Below are positions 27,259 to 35,177 of a DNA stretch of 51,329 bases, piece after piece; the first letter of the stretch is position 1, and every line of letters starts with the position of its first letter. This DNA is from Egibacter sp. (GTDB taxonomy: Bacteria; Actinomycetota; Nitriliruptoria; Euzebyales; Egibacteraceae). The stretch covers positions 1-51,329 of the forward strand of contig PWFH01000208.1 of the NCBI GenBank assembly GCA_003553795.1, in the 5' to 3' direction. Both the position numbers and the translations under genes were made by a program. The notes below the pieces were generated by a model. The model searched no databases. It was not told the DNA's origin and was given only the letters and a program-made list of their open reading frames with translations.

Positions 27259-28836
27259 ATGGACGGCTCCCCGACTCCGGTCCCGCCGACCCGTGACCTG
27301 CGCCTGGTCGGCCTCGTCGCGGCGGCGGGAGCGCTCGGCGCCGGCGAGCTCGCCGGCGGCCTGCTGCCCGCGGCGTCCTCGCCGCTGCTCGCCGTGGCCA
27401 CCGCCGTCGTCGAGGCCGCGCCGCCGGCGCTGACCGACGCGGCGATCGACGCGCTCGGTCGGGCGAGCACGCCGCTGCTCGAGATCGTCGTCGCGGCCAC
27501 CGTCCTCGTCTGCGGCGCCTGGCTCGGCCCGCGGGCCTCCTCGGCGCCCAGCCGCGCCCTCGCCGGGGTGGTCGCGCTCGCCGCCGTGCCGCCGGCCCTC
27601 GCCTGGGCGACGGGGGGACCCGCCCTCGGCGCCCTGCTCGGCAGCGCGATCGCCGCCGTCGTCGGCCTCGCCCTGCTCGCCTGGCTCGGTCGCAGGGCCG
27701 CGGGGCTCGTCGGGGCCGACGCCGCCGAGGACGCCCCGCCCGCCGACAGCCCGCGGGGCCTCGCGGCGAGCCAGCGCGCGACCCTCGCGCGCCGGCCGCT
27801 GCTGCGCGCGCTCGGCGCGGTCACGGGCCTGGGCGCGCTGGGCGCCGTCGCGGGGCGCTGGCTCCTGGGCCGTGGCGCGGTCGACGAGGCGCGTGAGGCG
27901 GTGCGCCTGCCCTCACCCGACGGGGACCGACCCGCGCCGCCGGCCGGATCGACGGTGGCCGGGGCGAGCCCCGCGCTCGTGGCCAACGACGACTTCTACC
28001 GCATCGACGTCGAGGTCCGTGCCCCGCGCGTCGACCCGGCGACCTGGCGGCTGCGCGTCACCGGCCGGGTCGAGCGCCCGCTCGAGCTCACCTACGACGA
28101 GCTCGTGGCCCTCGCCACCGACGAGGCCGACGTCCTGCTCGCCTGCGTCTCCAACCCCGTCGGCGGCGACCTCGCCGGCACCGCCCGCTGGCAGGGGGTG
28201 CGCCTCGACGACCTCCTCGACCGCGCCGGGCTCGCCGAGGGCGCCGAGCAGGTCCTCGGCAAGGCCGTCGGCGGCTTCACCGCCGGGTTCCCCGTCGCCG
28301 CGCTCGACGGCCGCGACGCCCTCGTCGCGGTGGCGATGAACGGCGAGCCGCTGCCGATCGCGCACGGCTTCCCCGCCCGCCTCGTCGTCCCCGGCCTCTA
28401 CGGCTACGTCTCGGCGACGAAGTGGCTCACCGAGATCGCGCTGACCCCCGCCGACGTCGACGGCTACTGGGTGCCGCGGGGCTGGGCGAAGGACGCGCCG
28501 ATCAAGCCGTCCTCACGCATCGACGTCCCCCGCGACGGCGCGCGCGTCGACGCCGGGCGCGTCGCGGTGGCCGGGGTGGCCTGGGCGACGGTCGGCGAGG
28601 TCGCCGCCGTCGAGGTCGCCGTCGACGACGGGCCGTGGCGGACCGCCCGGCTCGAGCCCTCCCTCGGCCCCTACGCCTGGCGGCAGTGGGTCCTCGACTG
28701 GGACGCCGAGCCGGGTGGGCACACCCTCGCGGTCCGCGCGGTCGGCGAGGACGGCCAGCCCCAGACCGCCGAGACCGCGCCGCCGCGCCCCGACGGGGCG
28801 AGCGGGCACCACACGATCGCCGTCGAGGTGCGCTGA
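27259..28836 (+). CDS. Membrane-anchored sulfite-oxidase-family molybdoenzyme
   Basis: 525 residues. The first about 165 residues hold four or more hydrophobic segments, then a further hydrophobic stretch near 175-195, so the enzyme domain should face outward. The oxidoreductase molybdopterin-binding domain begins near DDFYRIDVEV; Cys296 in LLACVSNPVGGD is the expected Mo ligand. A C-terminal immunoglobulin-like Mo-co dimerisation domain starts near residue 410 (PSSRIDVPRDGARV). Related enzymes oxidise sulfite or reduce S- or N-oxides; the substrate cannot be told. A modABC operon lies about 10 kb away. The ATG has no SD and lies 9 bp after a -10 candidate. Confidence 0.87.
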   Translation: MDGSPTPVPPTRDLRLVGLVAAAGALGAGELAGGLLPAASSPLLAVATAVVEAAPPALTDAAIDALGRASTPLLEIVVAATVLVCGAWLGPRASSAPSRALAGVVALAAVPPALAWATGGPALGALLGSAIAAVVGLALLAWLGRRAAGLVGADAAEDAPPADSPRGLAASQRATLARRPLLRALGAVTGLGALGAVAGRWLLGRGAVDEAREAVRLPSPDGDRPAPPAGSTVAGASPALVANDDFYRIDVEVRAPRVDPATWRLRVTGRVERPLELTYDELVALATDEADVLLACVSNPVGGDLAGTARWQGVRLDDLLDRAGLAEGAEQVLGKAVGGFTAGFPVAALDGRDALVAVAMNGEPLPIAHGFPARLVVPGLYGYVSATKWLTEIALTPADVDGYWVPRGWAKDAPIKPSSRIDVPRDGARVDAGRVAVAGVAWATVGEVAAVEVAVDDGPWRTARLEPSLGPYAWRQWVLDWDAEPGGHTLAVRAVGEDGQPQTAETAPPRPDGASGHHTIAVEVR

Positions 28837-32535: not shown

Positions 32536-33816
32536 ATGGTCCTGCCGACCGAGCTCCTCGCCTCCGCCGCGCTCGCCGCGCTCGCCGCCGGCGTCGTCGT
32601 CTGGCGCCTCGCCCCGCGCCGCGGGGTCGCGCCCGGGGCGGTCGTCGACCTCCTCGCCGCGGTGATCGTCGCCGGGCTCGTCGCCGGGCGCGCCGCGACG
32701 GTCCTCGTCGACGTCGCCCTGTCGGGGCCGATCGCACCGACGGCGTGGCCGCGGCTGACCGCGGGGGTCTCCCTGCCCGCCGGGGTGGCCGGTGGCCTCG
32801 GCGCGGTCGCGTGGTGGCGGCGCCGCGGCGGGGCGGCGGCGCTCGAGGTCGCCGCCGTCGCCCTCGCCGCCGGGCTCGCCGCCTGGTCGGTCGCTGCGCT
32901 GCTGCGCGGCGACGCCGCGGGGATCGCCGCCGGCCCACCGCTGGGGGTGCCCCTCCCGGGGGAGACGGGCACGCGCGTGCCGGTGGCCCTGCTCGAGGCC
33001 GCGGTCCAGGGGCTCGCCGCGGTCGTGCTCGCTCGGCGTGGCCGCGGCGTCGACGCCGCCGTCGCCCTCGGCCTCGTCGTCGTGGCCACCCACCTCGCCG
33101 CGTGGCCGCTGCGGCCCGCCCCGCCACCCGCCGACGGCGCGGTCGACGTCCTGCTCGCGCTCGCCGTGGCCGGCGGGCTCGGTCTCGTCGCGCTGCGCGG
33201 GCGCGGCGCGACGCTGCGCACCACCGTCGCGGCGCTCGCGCTCGCCGCCGGGCTCGGCGCGGTCGGCGTGGCCCTCGCGGTGGCGCCGCCCGAGGCCGTC
33301 GAGGCCGAGCCCGTCGCCGGCGTGCCCCTCGAGGGGGCGATCCGCGCCGACGAGCCGACGCCCGGCGACGGCGACGTCCCGGCCTGGGGGGCACCCGAGC
33401 TCGCCGCGCTCGTCGCCGCCCACGATGGGCCCGTCGTCGTGAACTTCTGGGCGTCGTGGTGCGGGCCCTGCCACGCCGAGGCGCCGGCGCTCGCGCGCAC
33501 GGTCGCGGCGACGCCCGACGCTGCCGCCATCGGCGTGCTCATCGACGATCCCGTCGCCGACGGCGCGGCGTTCGCCCGGCGCTACGACCTGCCGTTCCCG
33601 ACGGTGCTCGACGGGGGCCTGCGCTCCGAGCTCGCGATGGCGGGGCTGCCGACGACCGTCGTGCTCGACGACGACGGGGTGGAGGCCGCGCGCCTCGTCG
33701 GCGGCCTCGACGCCGCGAGCCTGTCGGCGGCGATCGACCGGGCCCGCCGTGGGGGCGACCCCGGTGCCGCGGGGGCGCGGCACGGCGCCCCCTGGGCGGG
33801 TGCGCCGCCGTCCTGA
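32536..33816 (+). CDS. Lgt-like polytopic membrane domain fused to TlpA-like thioredoxin
   Basis: 426 residues. The first about 260 carry seven or so hydrophobic helices whose order and spacing recall prolipoprotein diacylglyceryl transferase: a GR pair after helix two (LVAGRAATVL), LTAGVSLPAGVAGGLGAVAW where Lgt has its HGG motif, and RVPVALLEAAVQG where Lgt has HPxQLYEA. The key His and other catalytic residues are missing, so enzyme activity is unlikely. The C-terminal domain (about 285-415) is thioredoxin-like with Trp308-Cys-Gly-Pro-Cys312 in VNFWASWCGPCHAEAPAL. It is probably an extracytoplasmic thiol oxidoreductase anchored by a degenerate Lgt fold. The Lgt link is my reading of the pattern. 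Confidence 0.72.
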   Translation: MVLPTELLASAALAALAAGVVVWRLAPRRGVAPGAVVDLLAAVIVAGLVAGRAATVLVDVALSGPIAPTAWPRLTAGVSLPAGVAGGLGAVAWWRRRGGAAALEVAAVALAAGLAAWSVAALLRGDAAGIAAGPPLGVPLPGETGTRVPVALLEAAVQGLAAVVLARRGRGVDAAVALGLVVVATHLAAWPLRPAPPPADGAVDVLLALAVAGGLGLVALRGRGATLRTTVAALALAAGLGAVGVALAVAPPEAVEAEPVAGVPLEGAIRADEPTPGDGDVPAWGAPELAALVAAHDGPVVVNFWASWCGPCHAEAPALARTVAATPDAAAIGVLIDDPVADGAAFARRYDLPFPTVLDGGLRSELAMAGLPTTVVLDDDGVEAARLVGGLDAASLSAAIDRARRGGDPGAAGARHGAPWAGAPPS

Positions 33817-33851: not shown

Positions 33852-35177
33852 ATGAACGGCGCAGGCTCGCTCGCACGGCGCTTGGGCGTCGCCGCGGTCG
33901 TCCTGCTCGCACTGCCGGCCTGCACCTCAGGGGAGCCCGCCGAGCCCGAGCCCGAGCCGACGCCGGCGGAGGACCCCACCGAGGAGCCCACCGAGCCCGA
34001 GCCCGACCCCGAGGCCGAGGCCCTCTCCGAGACGATCGTCGAGATCACCGAGCAGGTCGCCGCCATGCGCGACCTCGAGGTCCTCGAGGAGGTCACCACC
34101 GAGATCGTCGAGCCCGACGAGCTCGCCGAGATCGTCACCGAGCGCGACCGCGACGCCGAGGCCGTCGAGCGGCTCGCCGCCTCCACCCGGGTGCTCGCCG
34201 CCTTGCGGCACGTCCCCGTCGACGCCGACCTCGAGCGCATCATCGACGACCTGCAGTCGGCGAGCGTCGTCGGCCTCTACGACGCCGCCGACGAGGTCGC
34301 CTACGTCTCCGGTGAGGAGCTGCCGCTGAGCCCCGCAGCGGCGACGACGGCGGCCCACGAGGTCCTCCACGCCCTGCAGGACCAGCACTTCGACCTCTCC
34401 CGCCTCGACGACATCCCCCTCGAGGACGGCGACTCCGCCCTCGCGTTCCTCTCGGTCGTCGAGGGCGACGCGGTCATCCTCGAGGAGGAGTGGGCGGCGA
34501 CCCACCAGGACGAGGAGGAGCGGCGCGAGGCCGAGCAGGAGCAGCTCGACGGCGCCGCCGAGCAGCTCGCGGTCCTCGACGACGTCCCCTCCTACGTCGT
34601 CGAGTCCTTCGTCTTCCCCTACGTCGCCGGCGAGCGCTTCGTCGCGAGCCTCATCGAGGAGGGCGGCTACGAGGCCGTCGACGCCGCGCTCGCCGACCCG
34701 CCGACGACCACCCTCGAGATCCTCGACCCGCAGGCCTACGTCGACGGCGTCGAGCTCGCCGAGGTCGAGGCCGGCACGGCCCCGGTCGACGGCGAGGAGG
34801 TCTTCGCCTCGAGCTTCGGCGCCTTCGACCTCCTCGCGCTCTTCGGCGCCGCCGAGGACCCCGAGGCGCAGGCCGGCTCGGCGACGTGGCCGTCGTGGCG
34901 GGGCGGGGCGCTGCGCGCCTGGGAGGTCGACGAGACCCTCGTCGTCGCCGCCGCCTGGCGCTTCGCCGACGACGAGTCGGCGGCCACCGCCTGCGACGCC
35001 GTCGCGGCGTGGTACCGCGACGTCGCCGCACTCGAGGACGAGGCCGAGGCCGACGACGCCGCGGTCGTGCTCGAGGCCGAGCGTGACGCGGTCGCGATCC
35101 GCTGCGACGGGCCGGACGTGCGCTTCGCCCTCTCCGAGGAGCCGACGCTCGCCGAGGACGTCAGCGCCGCCGACTGA
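33852..35177 (+). CDS. HEVLH-motif metallopeptidase-like lipoprotein
   Basis: 441 residues. Lipobox LALPAC gives lipidated Cys24, then a Glu/Pro/Thr linker to about residue 55. His169-Glu170-Val-Leu-His173 in AAHEVLHALQDQHFDL is a zincin-type site; EGDAVILEEEW downstream may give the third ligand. The segment with PYVAGERFVASLIEEGGYEAV and PPTTTLEIL resembles uncharacterised surface proteins of haloarchaea (Hvo_1808 type) and Chloroflexi as I recall them. Peptidase activity is inferred only. It should sit on the outer face of the membrane. AGGGAGG lies upstream of the ATG. Confidence 0.72.
   Translation: MNGAGSLARRLGVAAVVLLALPACTSGEPAEPEPEPTPAEDPTEEPTEPEPDPEAEALSETIVEITEQVAAMRDLEVLEEVTTEIVEPDELAEIVTERDRDAEAVERLAASTRVLAALRHVPVDADLERIIDDLQSASVVGLYDAADEVAYVSGEELPLSPAAATTAAHEVLHALQDQHFDLSRLDDIPLEDGDSALAFLSVVEGDAVILEEEWAATHQDEEERREAEQEQLDGAAEQLAVLDDVPSYVVESFVFPYVAGERFVASLIEEGGYEAVDAALADPPTTTLEILDPQAYVDGVELAEVEAGTAPVDGEEVFASSFGAFDLLALFGAAEDPEAQAGSATWPSWRGGALRAWEVDETLVVAAAWRFADDESAATACDAVAAWYRDVAALEDEAEADDAAVVLEAERDAVAIRCDGPDVRFALSEEPTLAEDVSAAD

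Follow-up and report, generated by a model that had tools for sequence, protein, structure and literature searches.

A putative pseudo-Lgt membrane domain fused to a TlpA/ResA-like thioredoxin in Egibacter sp.

In a 51,329-nucleotide stretch of DNA from Egibacter sp. (the window), we identified a gene that joins a multi-helix membrane domain, a degenerate remote relative of prolipoprotein diacylglyceryl transferase (Lgt), to a TlpA/ResA-like thioredoxin domain. Lgt-like and TlpA-like proteins are paired in three phyla (Chloroflexota, Bacillota, and Actinomycetota), either as neighboring genes or as fusions. The best overall explanation, which we consider likely, is that the protein is an extracytoplasmic thiol-disulfide reductase on a membrane-docking pseudo-Lgt platform.

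The fusion gene and its thioredoxin domain

We checked the open reading frame: it begins with ATG, encodes 426 amino acids, and is correctly placed at 32536-33816. Its features are:

32536-33816, + strand: fusion gene, predicted pseudo-Lgt membrane domain and extracytoplasmic TlpA/ResA-like thioredoxin (426 amino acids; orthologs P0003, P0004, P0005, and P0002)
32536-33291, + strand: membrane domain, amino acids 1-252, eight predicted helices (Pfam LGT, E = 0.0021; Chloroflexota profile, E = 4.4e-9)
32689-32691, + strand: Arg52 in transmembrane helix 2 (TM2), aligned with the invariant TM2 arginine of Lgt (GAR motif); invariant in 5/5 fusion proteins
32896-32982, + strand: predicted outside loop between TM4 and TM5, amino acids 121-149 (ALLRGDAAGI...TRV), at the site of the signature motif and head domain of Lgt
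32998-33000, + strand: Glu155, at the E202 position of Lgt (HPxxxYE); kept in 4/5 members
33208-33273, + strand: additional eighth TM helix, amino acids 225-246, which would bring the thioredoxin outside (predicted helices and topology)
33292-33390, + strand: acidic linker, amino acids 253-285, outside the membrane by predicted topology
33391-33750, + strand: TlpA/ResA-like thioredoxin domain, amino acids 286-405 (Pfam and PDB matches; model pLDDT of 78-90 up to residue 400)
33460-33471, + strand: redox-active CGPC, Cys309 and Cys312 (CPPC in three orthologs)

The initial annotation described an Lgt-like membrane domain joined to a WCGPC TlpA-like thioredoxin, and the open reading frame, Pfam, and profile evidence agree with this description. 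The C-terminal part of the protein matches the Pfam families AhpC-TSA (E = 5.9e-11) and Redoxin (E = 2.7e-9). Both matches exceed the curated cut-offs (42.8 vs. 26 and 37.4 vs. 26.6 bits). By sequence, the domain is most similar in PDB to CcmG/CycY, ResA, and other proteins of the TlpA type, and when we compared a model of the protein to known structures with Foldseek, the matches included CcmG (1kng), MPT53 (1lu4), and ResA. The hallmarks of the domain are present: CGPC at residues 309-312, a cis-proline loop (GLPTT, residues 370-374), and Glu315, which is the glutamate of the CxxCxxE motif of ResA and TlpA proteins and is invariant in 5/5 members of the fusion family.

The C-terminus of Lgt is cytoplasmic. 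Lgt has seven TM helices (PMC4728403). AlphaFold helices (of low confidence in the membrane part) and hydropathy indicate eight TM segments in the fusion protein, and all of its inner loops are positively charged, which fits an eight-helix topology with both the N-terminus and the thioredoxin outside. Because the fusion adds an eighth helix (residues 225-246) to a seven-helix protein that ends in the cytoplasm, its thioredoxin domain would lie outside the membrane. TlpA, ResA, and CcmG (1jfu, 1st9, and 1kng) also have the CxxCxxE glutamate and an AhpC-TSA/Redoxin domain outside the membrane, but they are anchored by one helix or by a lipid, instead of by a multi-TM, Lgt-derived domain.

The host genome assembly (3.13 Mb in 231 contigs) is 96.5% complete. 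The same fusion, which the initial annotation proposed to search for, does occur elsewhere. We found an ortholog in the same genus (genome G018; 85% identity) and orthologs in another family of the same order (genomes G022, G023, and G024; 44-47% identity). In total, the family is present in five genomes from two families of one order, and it is absent from the remainder of 396 sampled genomes of the phylum (at E <= 1e-25). Nucleotide-pattern scans of genome contigs recovered mainly thioredoxin-only relatives of the window protein, and they led to the fusions in Bacillota that are discussed below. Between the window protein and the ortholog from the same genus (the two closest members), dN/dS is 0.24 for the membrane domain and 0.17 for the thioredoxin domain, so both domains are under purifying selection.

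Scanning for promoters and terminators found nothing, and we saw no conservation of the neighboring genes between the two families. Directly 3' of the fusion gene (33852-35177, + strand) lies a gene for a lipoprotein-like protein of 441 amino acids with an HEVLH motif. This might be a zinc protease; it has no Pfam match at E <= 0.001. Another gene in the window (27259-28836, + strand) encodes a sulfite-oxidase type molybdopterin oxidoreductase (Oxidored_molyb, E = 1.2e-42), whose N-terminal part has multiple TM segments.

Relationship of the membrane domain to Lgt

The Lgt family of Pfam (PF01790) matches residues 12-165 of the window protein with 17.9 bits (E = 0.0021) and matches its 85%-identical ortholog with 21.3 bits (E = 1.9e-4). 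Both scores are below the gathering cut-off of 24.9 bits. When we scanned 66 genomes of the class with PF01790, three members of the fusion family were the only non-Lgt matches at E < 0.01 (pieces of one broken Lgt were counted with the canonical Lgts). In the reverse direction, we built an HMM from the five fusion membrane domains, with no Lgt sequences included, and scored 286 multi-TM open reading frames. True Lgts came out on top (best E = 0.0022; Mann-Whitney p = 3.4e-6), and hhalign gave the same Lgt-first ordering (p = 3.8e-7).

Direct profile comparisons of the fusion family with the Lgts of the class were weak (E = 7.5e-4 and 0.011 in two runs). A stronger link runs through degenerate Lgt-like proteins from Chloroflexota, whose profile matches the fusion family with E = 4.4e-9 (96% probability over 212 columns) and matches true Lgt with E = 1.3e-35. 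When we searched with an HMM of these Lgt-like proteins, 25 Lgts ranked first, followed by the window protein (E = 1.3e-11) and its ortholog (E = 1.9e-10), then by TlpA-linked Lgt-like proteins from Bacillota and another fusion ortholog, and then by unrelated membrane proteins. An HMM built from the Lgts of the class alone did not have the window protein among the best matches listed, so the homology is seen in reverse and via intermediates. Since the PF01790 scan, the fusion-domain HMM, the Chloroflexota profile, and the ranking by the Chloroflexota HMM agree, we conclude from this transitive profile evidence that the membrane domain is a remote homolog of Lgt over a seven-helix core.

Structure prediction for the window protein itself was of little use. 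An AlphaFold model of its membrane domain from five sequences was poor (block pLDDT of 29-54), and Foldseek with a model of the whole fusion had only thioredoxins among the matches listed. But a related family from Paenibacillales, with members that are encoded separately from TlpA, gave a good model (21 sequences; pLDDT of 89 and pTM of 0.82). It has a β-hairpin, seven TM helices, and a pair of short helices that follow TM2 and precede TM3; the hairpin and the short helices correspond to arm-1 and arm-2 in the published description of Lgt (PMC4728403). Its sole confident match in PDB was E. coli Lgt (5azb; probability 1.00, TMq 0.63, E = 7.8e-3). The matches after that had probabilities of 0.44 or less, and neither DsbD nor VKOR was among the matches listed. 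Searching the sequences in PDB with the Paenibacillales profile found nothing. This profile is similar to that of the Chloroflexota Lgt-like proteins (E = 6.6e-7), and comparing it directly to the window family with hhalign gave no significant match (E = 0.59 and 0.12). The structural comparison with Lgt that the initial annotation called for thus succeeded for a relative and not for the window protein, whose own membrane model is unusable. The model of the related Paenibacillales protein supports an Lgt fold.

The fusion family shares with Lgt (PF01790; 5azb) the predicted helix order, the TM2 arginine, the positions of E151, G154, and E202, and the outside loop between TM4 and TM5. It differs from Lgt in having lost R143, N146, N149, R239, and E243, in scoring below the Pfam cut-off, and in the addition of TM8 and a thioredoxin. 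These fusion residues were matched to Lgt sites by alignment and, in part, by what we take to be the E. coli numbering. E. coli residues are numbered as in PMC4728403.

The Lgt signature GRxGNxxNxExxG is not matched in the fusion protein, where the aligned segment reads SVAALLRGDAAG: Val118 is at the position of R143, Ala121 is at N146, and Arg124 is at N149. The Arg239/Glu243/Arg246 network in TM6 is also broken, with His186 at R239, Trp190 at E243, and Arg193 near R246. Even these replacements are not conserved among the five fusion members: His186 varies, and Arg193 is threonine in one member. In E. coli Lgt, R143, R239, E243, and R246 are essential or intolerant to mutation (PMC4728403). 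Three other positions are kept in 4/5 fusion members: E151 (Asp126 in the window protein; Asp or Glu), G154 (Gly129), and E202 (Glu155). Asp126 and Gly129 lie in the TM4-TM5 loop, for which AlphaFold predicts two short strands. P0002 lacks this loop, so the residues kept there are not indispensable.

The initial annotation had also pointed to the loss of the HGG motif before TM3. HGG is indeed absent from the fusion protein, but FGG is invariant in nine aligned true Lgts of the class, among them the product of the genome's own canonical lgt (G000:C223; PF01790 E = 1.6e-61), whose presence the initial annotation had suggested checking. The loss of HGG does not discriminate between true and degenerate Lgts, so we rejected it as proof of degeneracy; the claim that catalytic residues are gone holds for R143, N146, N149, R239, and E243 instead.

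The membrane domain is therefore best described, from its sequence, as a pseudo-Lgt that is predicted to be catalytically dead. A working Lgt isozyme, whose fused thioredoxin keeps the lipobox cysteine reduced, would make sense of the fusion, as Lgt acts on a cysteine thiol, and three Lgt positions (E151, G154, and E202) persist in most members. Given the five lost positions, the score below the Pfam cut-off, and the canonical lgt in the same genome, we consider an isozyme to be very unlikely.

Residues 1-308 contain no cysteine, and Cys309 and Cys312 of the CGPC motif are the sole cysteines of the entire protein. A membrane domain without cysteines cannot relay thiols as CcdA and DsbD do, and the suggestion in the initial annotation that the membrane part itself takes part in thiol chemistry does not stand. 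The combination of a multi-TM domain and a thioredoxin domain is the architecture of DsbD, and DsbD/CcdA and ScsB resemble the fusion in this respect. This speaks for the idea that the thioredoxin receives electrons through the membrane domain, which would be a relay similar to CcdA/DsbD or VKOR. But these proteins have cysteines in their membrane domains, where the fusion lacks a membrane-helix cysteine pair, and the fusion has no sequence or fold similarity to them. Profile comparisons with CcdA showed no similarity (E = 0.16 and 0.58), and the best fold match of the related Paenibacillales family is Lgt. The initial annotation had named a better match to the DsbD or VKOR folds as grounds for doubting the link to Lgt; such a match appeared neither with the CcdA profiles nor among the matches listed for the Paenibacillales model. 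Also, the Paenibacillales operons include their own ccdA. A relay is extremely improbable.

Lgt-like proteins and TlpA in Bacillota and Chloroflexota

We examined 11 Paenibacillales loci at which a gene for a seven-TM Lgt-like protein immediately precedes ccdA and tlpA; locus L200 is an exception, where about 2 kb separates the genes. Other Paenibacillales have the Lgt-like domain and TlpA in one fused protein (11 fused loci), and we found two more such fusions in Exiguobacterium. Two of the split loci (L200:3503-4429 and L207:5512-6071) also have a true lgt, about 1 kb away from tlpA-ccdA. The lgt of L207 is in two overlapping pieces, perhaps because this copy is decaying or because of an error in the sequence.

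To look for functional associations, we counted genes for rhodanese, TusA, MBL-rhodanese, TauE/SafE, CstR, or CoA-disulfide reductase within about 7 kb. These sulfur genes were present near 7/11 of the split Paenibacillales operons and both of the Exiguobacterium fusions, as compared to 0/11 of the Paenibacillales fusions and 0/14 control loci with ordinary Bacillota TlpA. For instance, at L193:1-6446 and at L203, L205, L207, and L202, the Lgt-like, ccdA, and tlpA genes are in that order near a cluster of TusA, rhodanese, DsrE, MBL-rhodanese, and TauE/SafE genes, mostly with a CstR-like regulator. These TusA/rhodanese clusters resemble persulfide-detoxification clusters of the yrk or cst type. 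In Exiguobacterium (L052:1038-5288 and L108:4111-8324), the fusion gene is directly after a gene for an MBL-fold rhodanese and two rhodaneses.

The nearest relatives of the window's membrane domain are Lgt-like proteins from Chloroflexota (L239, L244, and L248-L279), which have the same partnership with TlpA. They are encoded by separate genes, and they keep HPVxxYE and often a TM6 motif, RxxxEPFR, which is lost in the window protein. In a search for Lgt-like proteins around genome G630, tlpA adjoined the Lgt-like gene in about 20 of 30 loci. Across all the Lgt loci that we collected, a thioredoxin neighbor was present at 27/78 loci without the canonical signature and at 1/42 loci with it (Fisher p = 2.4e-5, for loci that are not phylogenetically independent, with queries that were picked for lying beside tlpA and a crude pattern as the signature test). 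In many Chloroflexota genomes (L248-L279), a divergent Lgt-like gene of this kind lies directly beside tlpA, lacks the GRxGN signature, and keeps LPWA...HPVxxYE; such genes are likely to be mis-annotated as Lgt.

We searched the literature for Lgt together with TlpA, CcdA, or thioredoxin, and we found no paper on such a fusion or operon in the open PMC set, which is not proof that none exists. The folds are already known; the partnership of Lgt and TlpA is apparently undescribed. So far, Lgt has been regarded as an enzyme with one purpose. If a degenerate branch of Lgt is tied to extracytoplasmic thioredoxins in three phyla, the fold of this enzyme would have been put to a different thiol-related use. 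For many membrane proteins that lack annotation, the pairing suggests a partner that can be tested, and it cautions against labeling matches that resemble PF01790 as Lgt.

Possible functions of the fusion protein

In the mechanism that we favor, the N-terminal domain, descended from Lgt, would keep the helix order of its ancestor and be catalytically dead, and the added eighth helix would carry the TlpA/ResA-type thioredoxin to the outer face of the membrane. We infer that the thioredoxin acts in the reducing direction: it would most likely be kept reduced by a CcdA-type reductant encoded elsewhere, and would reduce disulfides or persulfides in substrates close to the membrane. It would be docked there by the pseudo-Lgt, which may also help in holding these substrates. 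The cavity of Lgt opens to both the bilayer and the periplasm and takes phospholipid and, it has been proposed, the peptide with the lipobox cysteine (PMC4728403). Because of this, the pseudo-Lgt might bind either a lipid or a cysteine substrate near the membrane, which it would then present to the thioredoxin. The proposal in the initial annotation that an Lgt fold without its catalytic residues was re-used as the thioredoxin's membrane module agrees with our results.

The main rival is that the Lgt-descended domain is an inert anchor that merely tethers the thioredoxin. Most TlpA proteins need just one TM helix or a lipid as an anchor. The membrane domain diverges faster than the thioredoxin (34-42% vs. 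59-65% identity among the fusions), and P0002 has lost the TM4-TM5 loop, as might be expected if only tethering matters. However, a single helix would do, yet six to eight helices persist in several lineages, and the membrane domain's dN/dS of 0.24 indicates constraint. A plain anchor also leaves unexplained the separate Lgt-like genes beside tlpA in Paenibacillales and Chloroflexota, whose products cannot tether the same chain. These observations make an inert anchor doubtful.

We tentatively raise a broader possibility, which falls well short of probable: that there is an undescribed family of pseudo-Lgt proteins, in Chloroflexota, Bacillota, and Actinomycetota, that works obligately with TlpA-type thioredoxins. 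Its Lgt-derived cavity would hold either a lipid or a membrane-embedded substrate (a cysteine or a persulfide) and present it to the thioredoxin, which would make the pair a new kind of membrane thiol-redox module.

As for the substrate, the genes near the split operons and the Exiguobacterium fusions, and their absence from the 14 control loci, suggest persulfides as one possible class in Bacillota. Such sulfur genes are absent from the surroundings of the window fusion, of its orthologs, and of the 11 Paenibacillales fusions, and we think it unlikely that the window protein handles persulfides or other reactive sulfur outside the cytoplasm.

The initial annotation had suggested a role in the maturation of lipoproteins or cytochromes. 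The thioredoxin domain is closest to the structures of CcmG, ResA, and MPT53, so it could be the organism's reductase for maturation of cytochrome c or cytochrome oxidase, as with ResA or TlpA. But the genome has an ordinary TlpA-CcdA-ResB set elsewhere that is more plausible for this job, the fusion is missing from most genomes of its family, and its gene neighborhood gives no hint of a role in maturation. Neither part of that suggestion is borne out, and a role in cytochrome maturation seems distinctly unlikely. The ordinary set is on contig C5 (L146:1235-4213), where genes for ResB, CcdA, and a TlpA lipoprotein are clustered beside genes resembling those of the bc1 complex. The host genome also has a second, weaker match to DsbD_TM.
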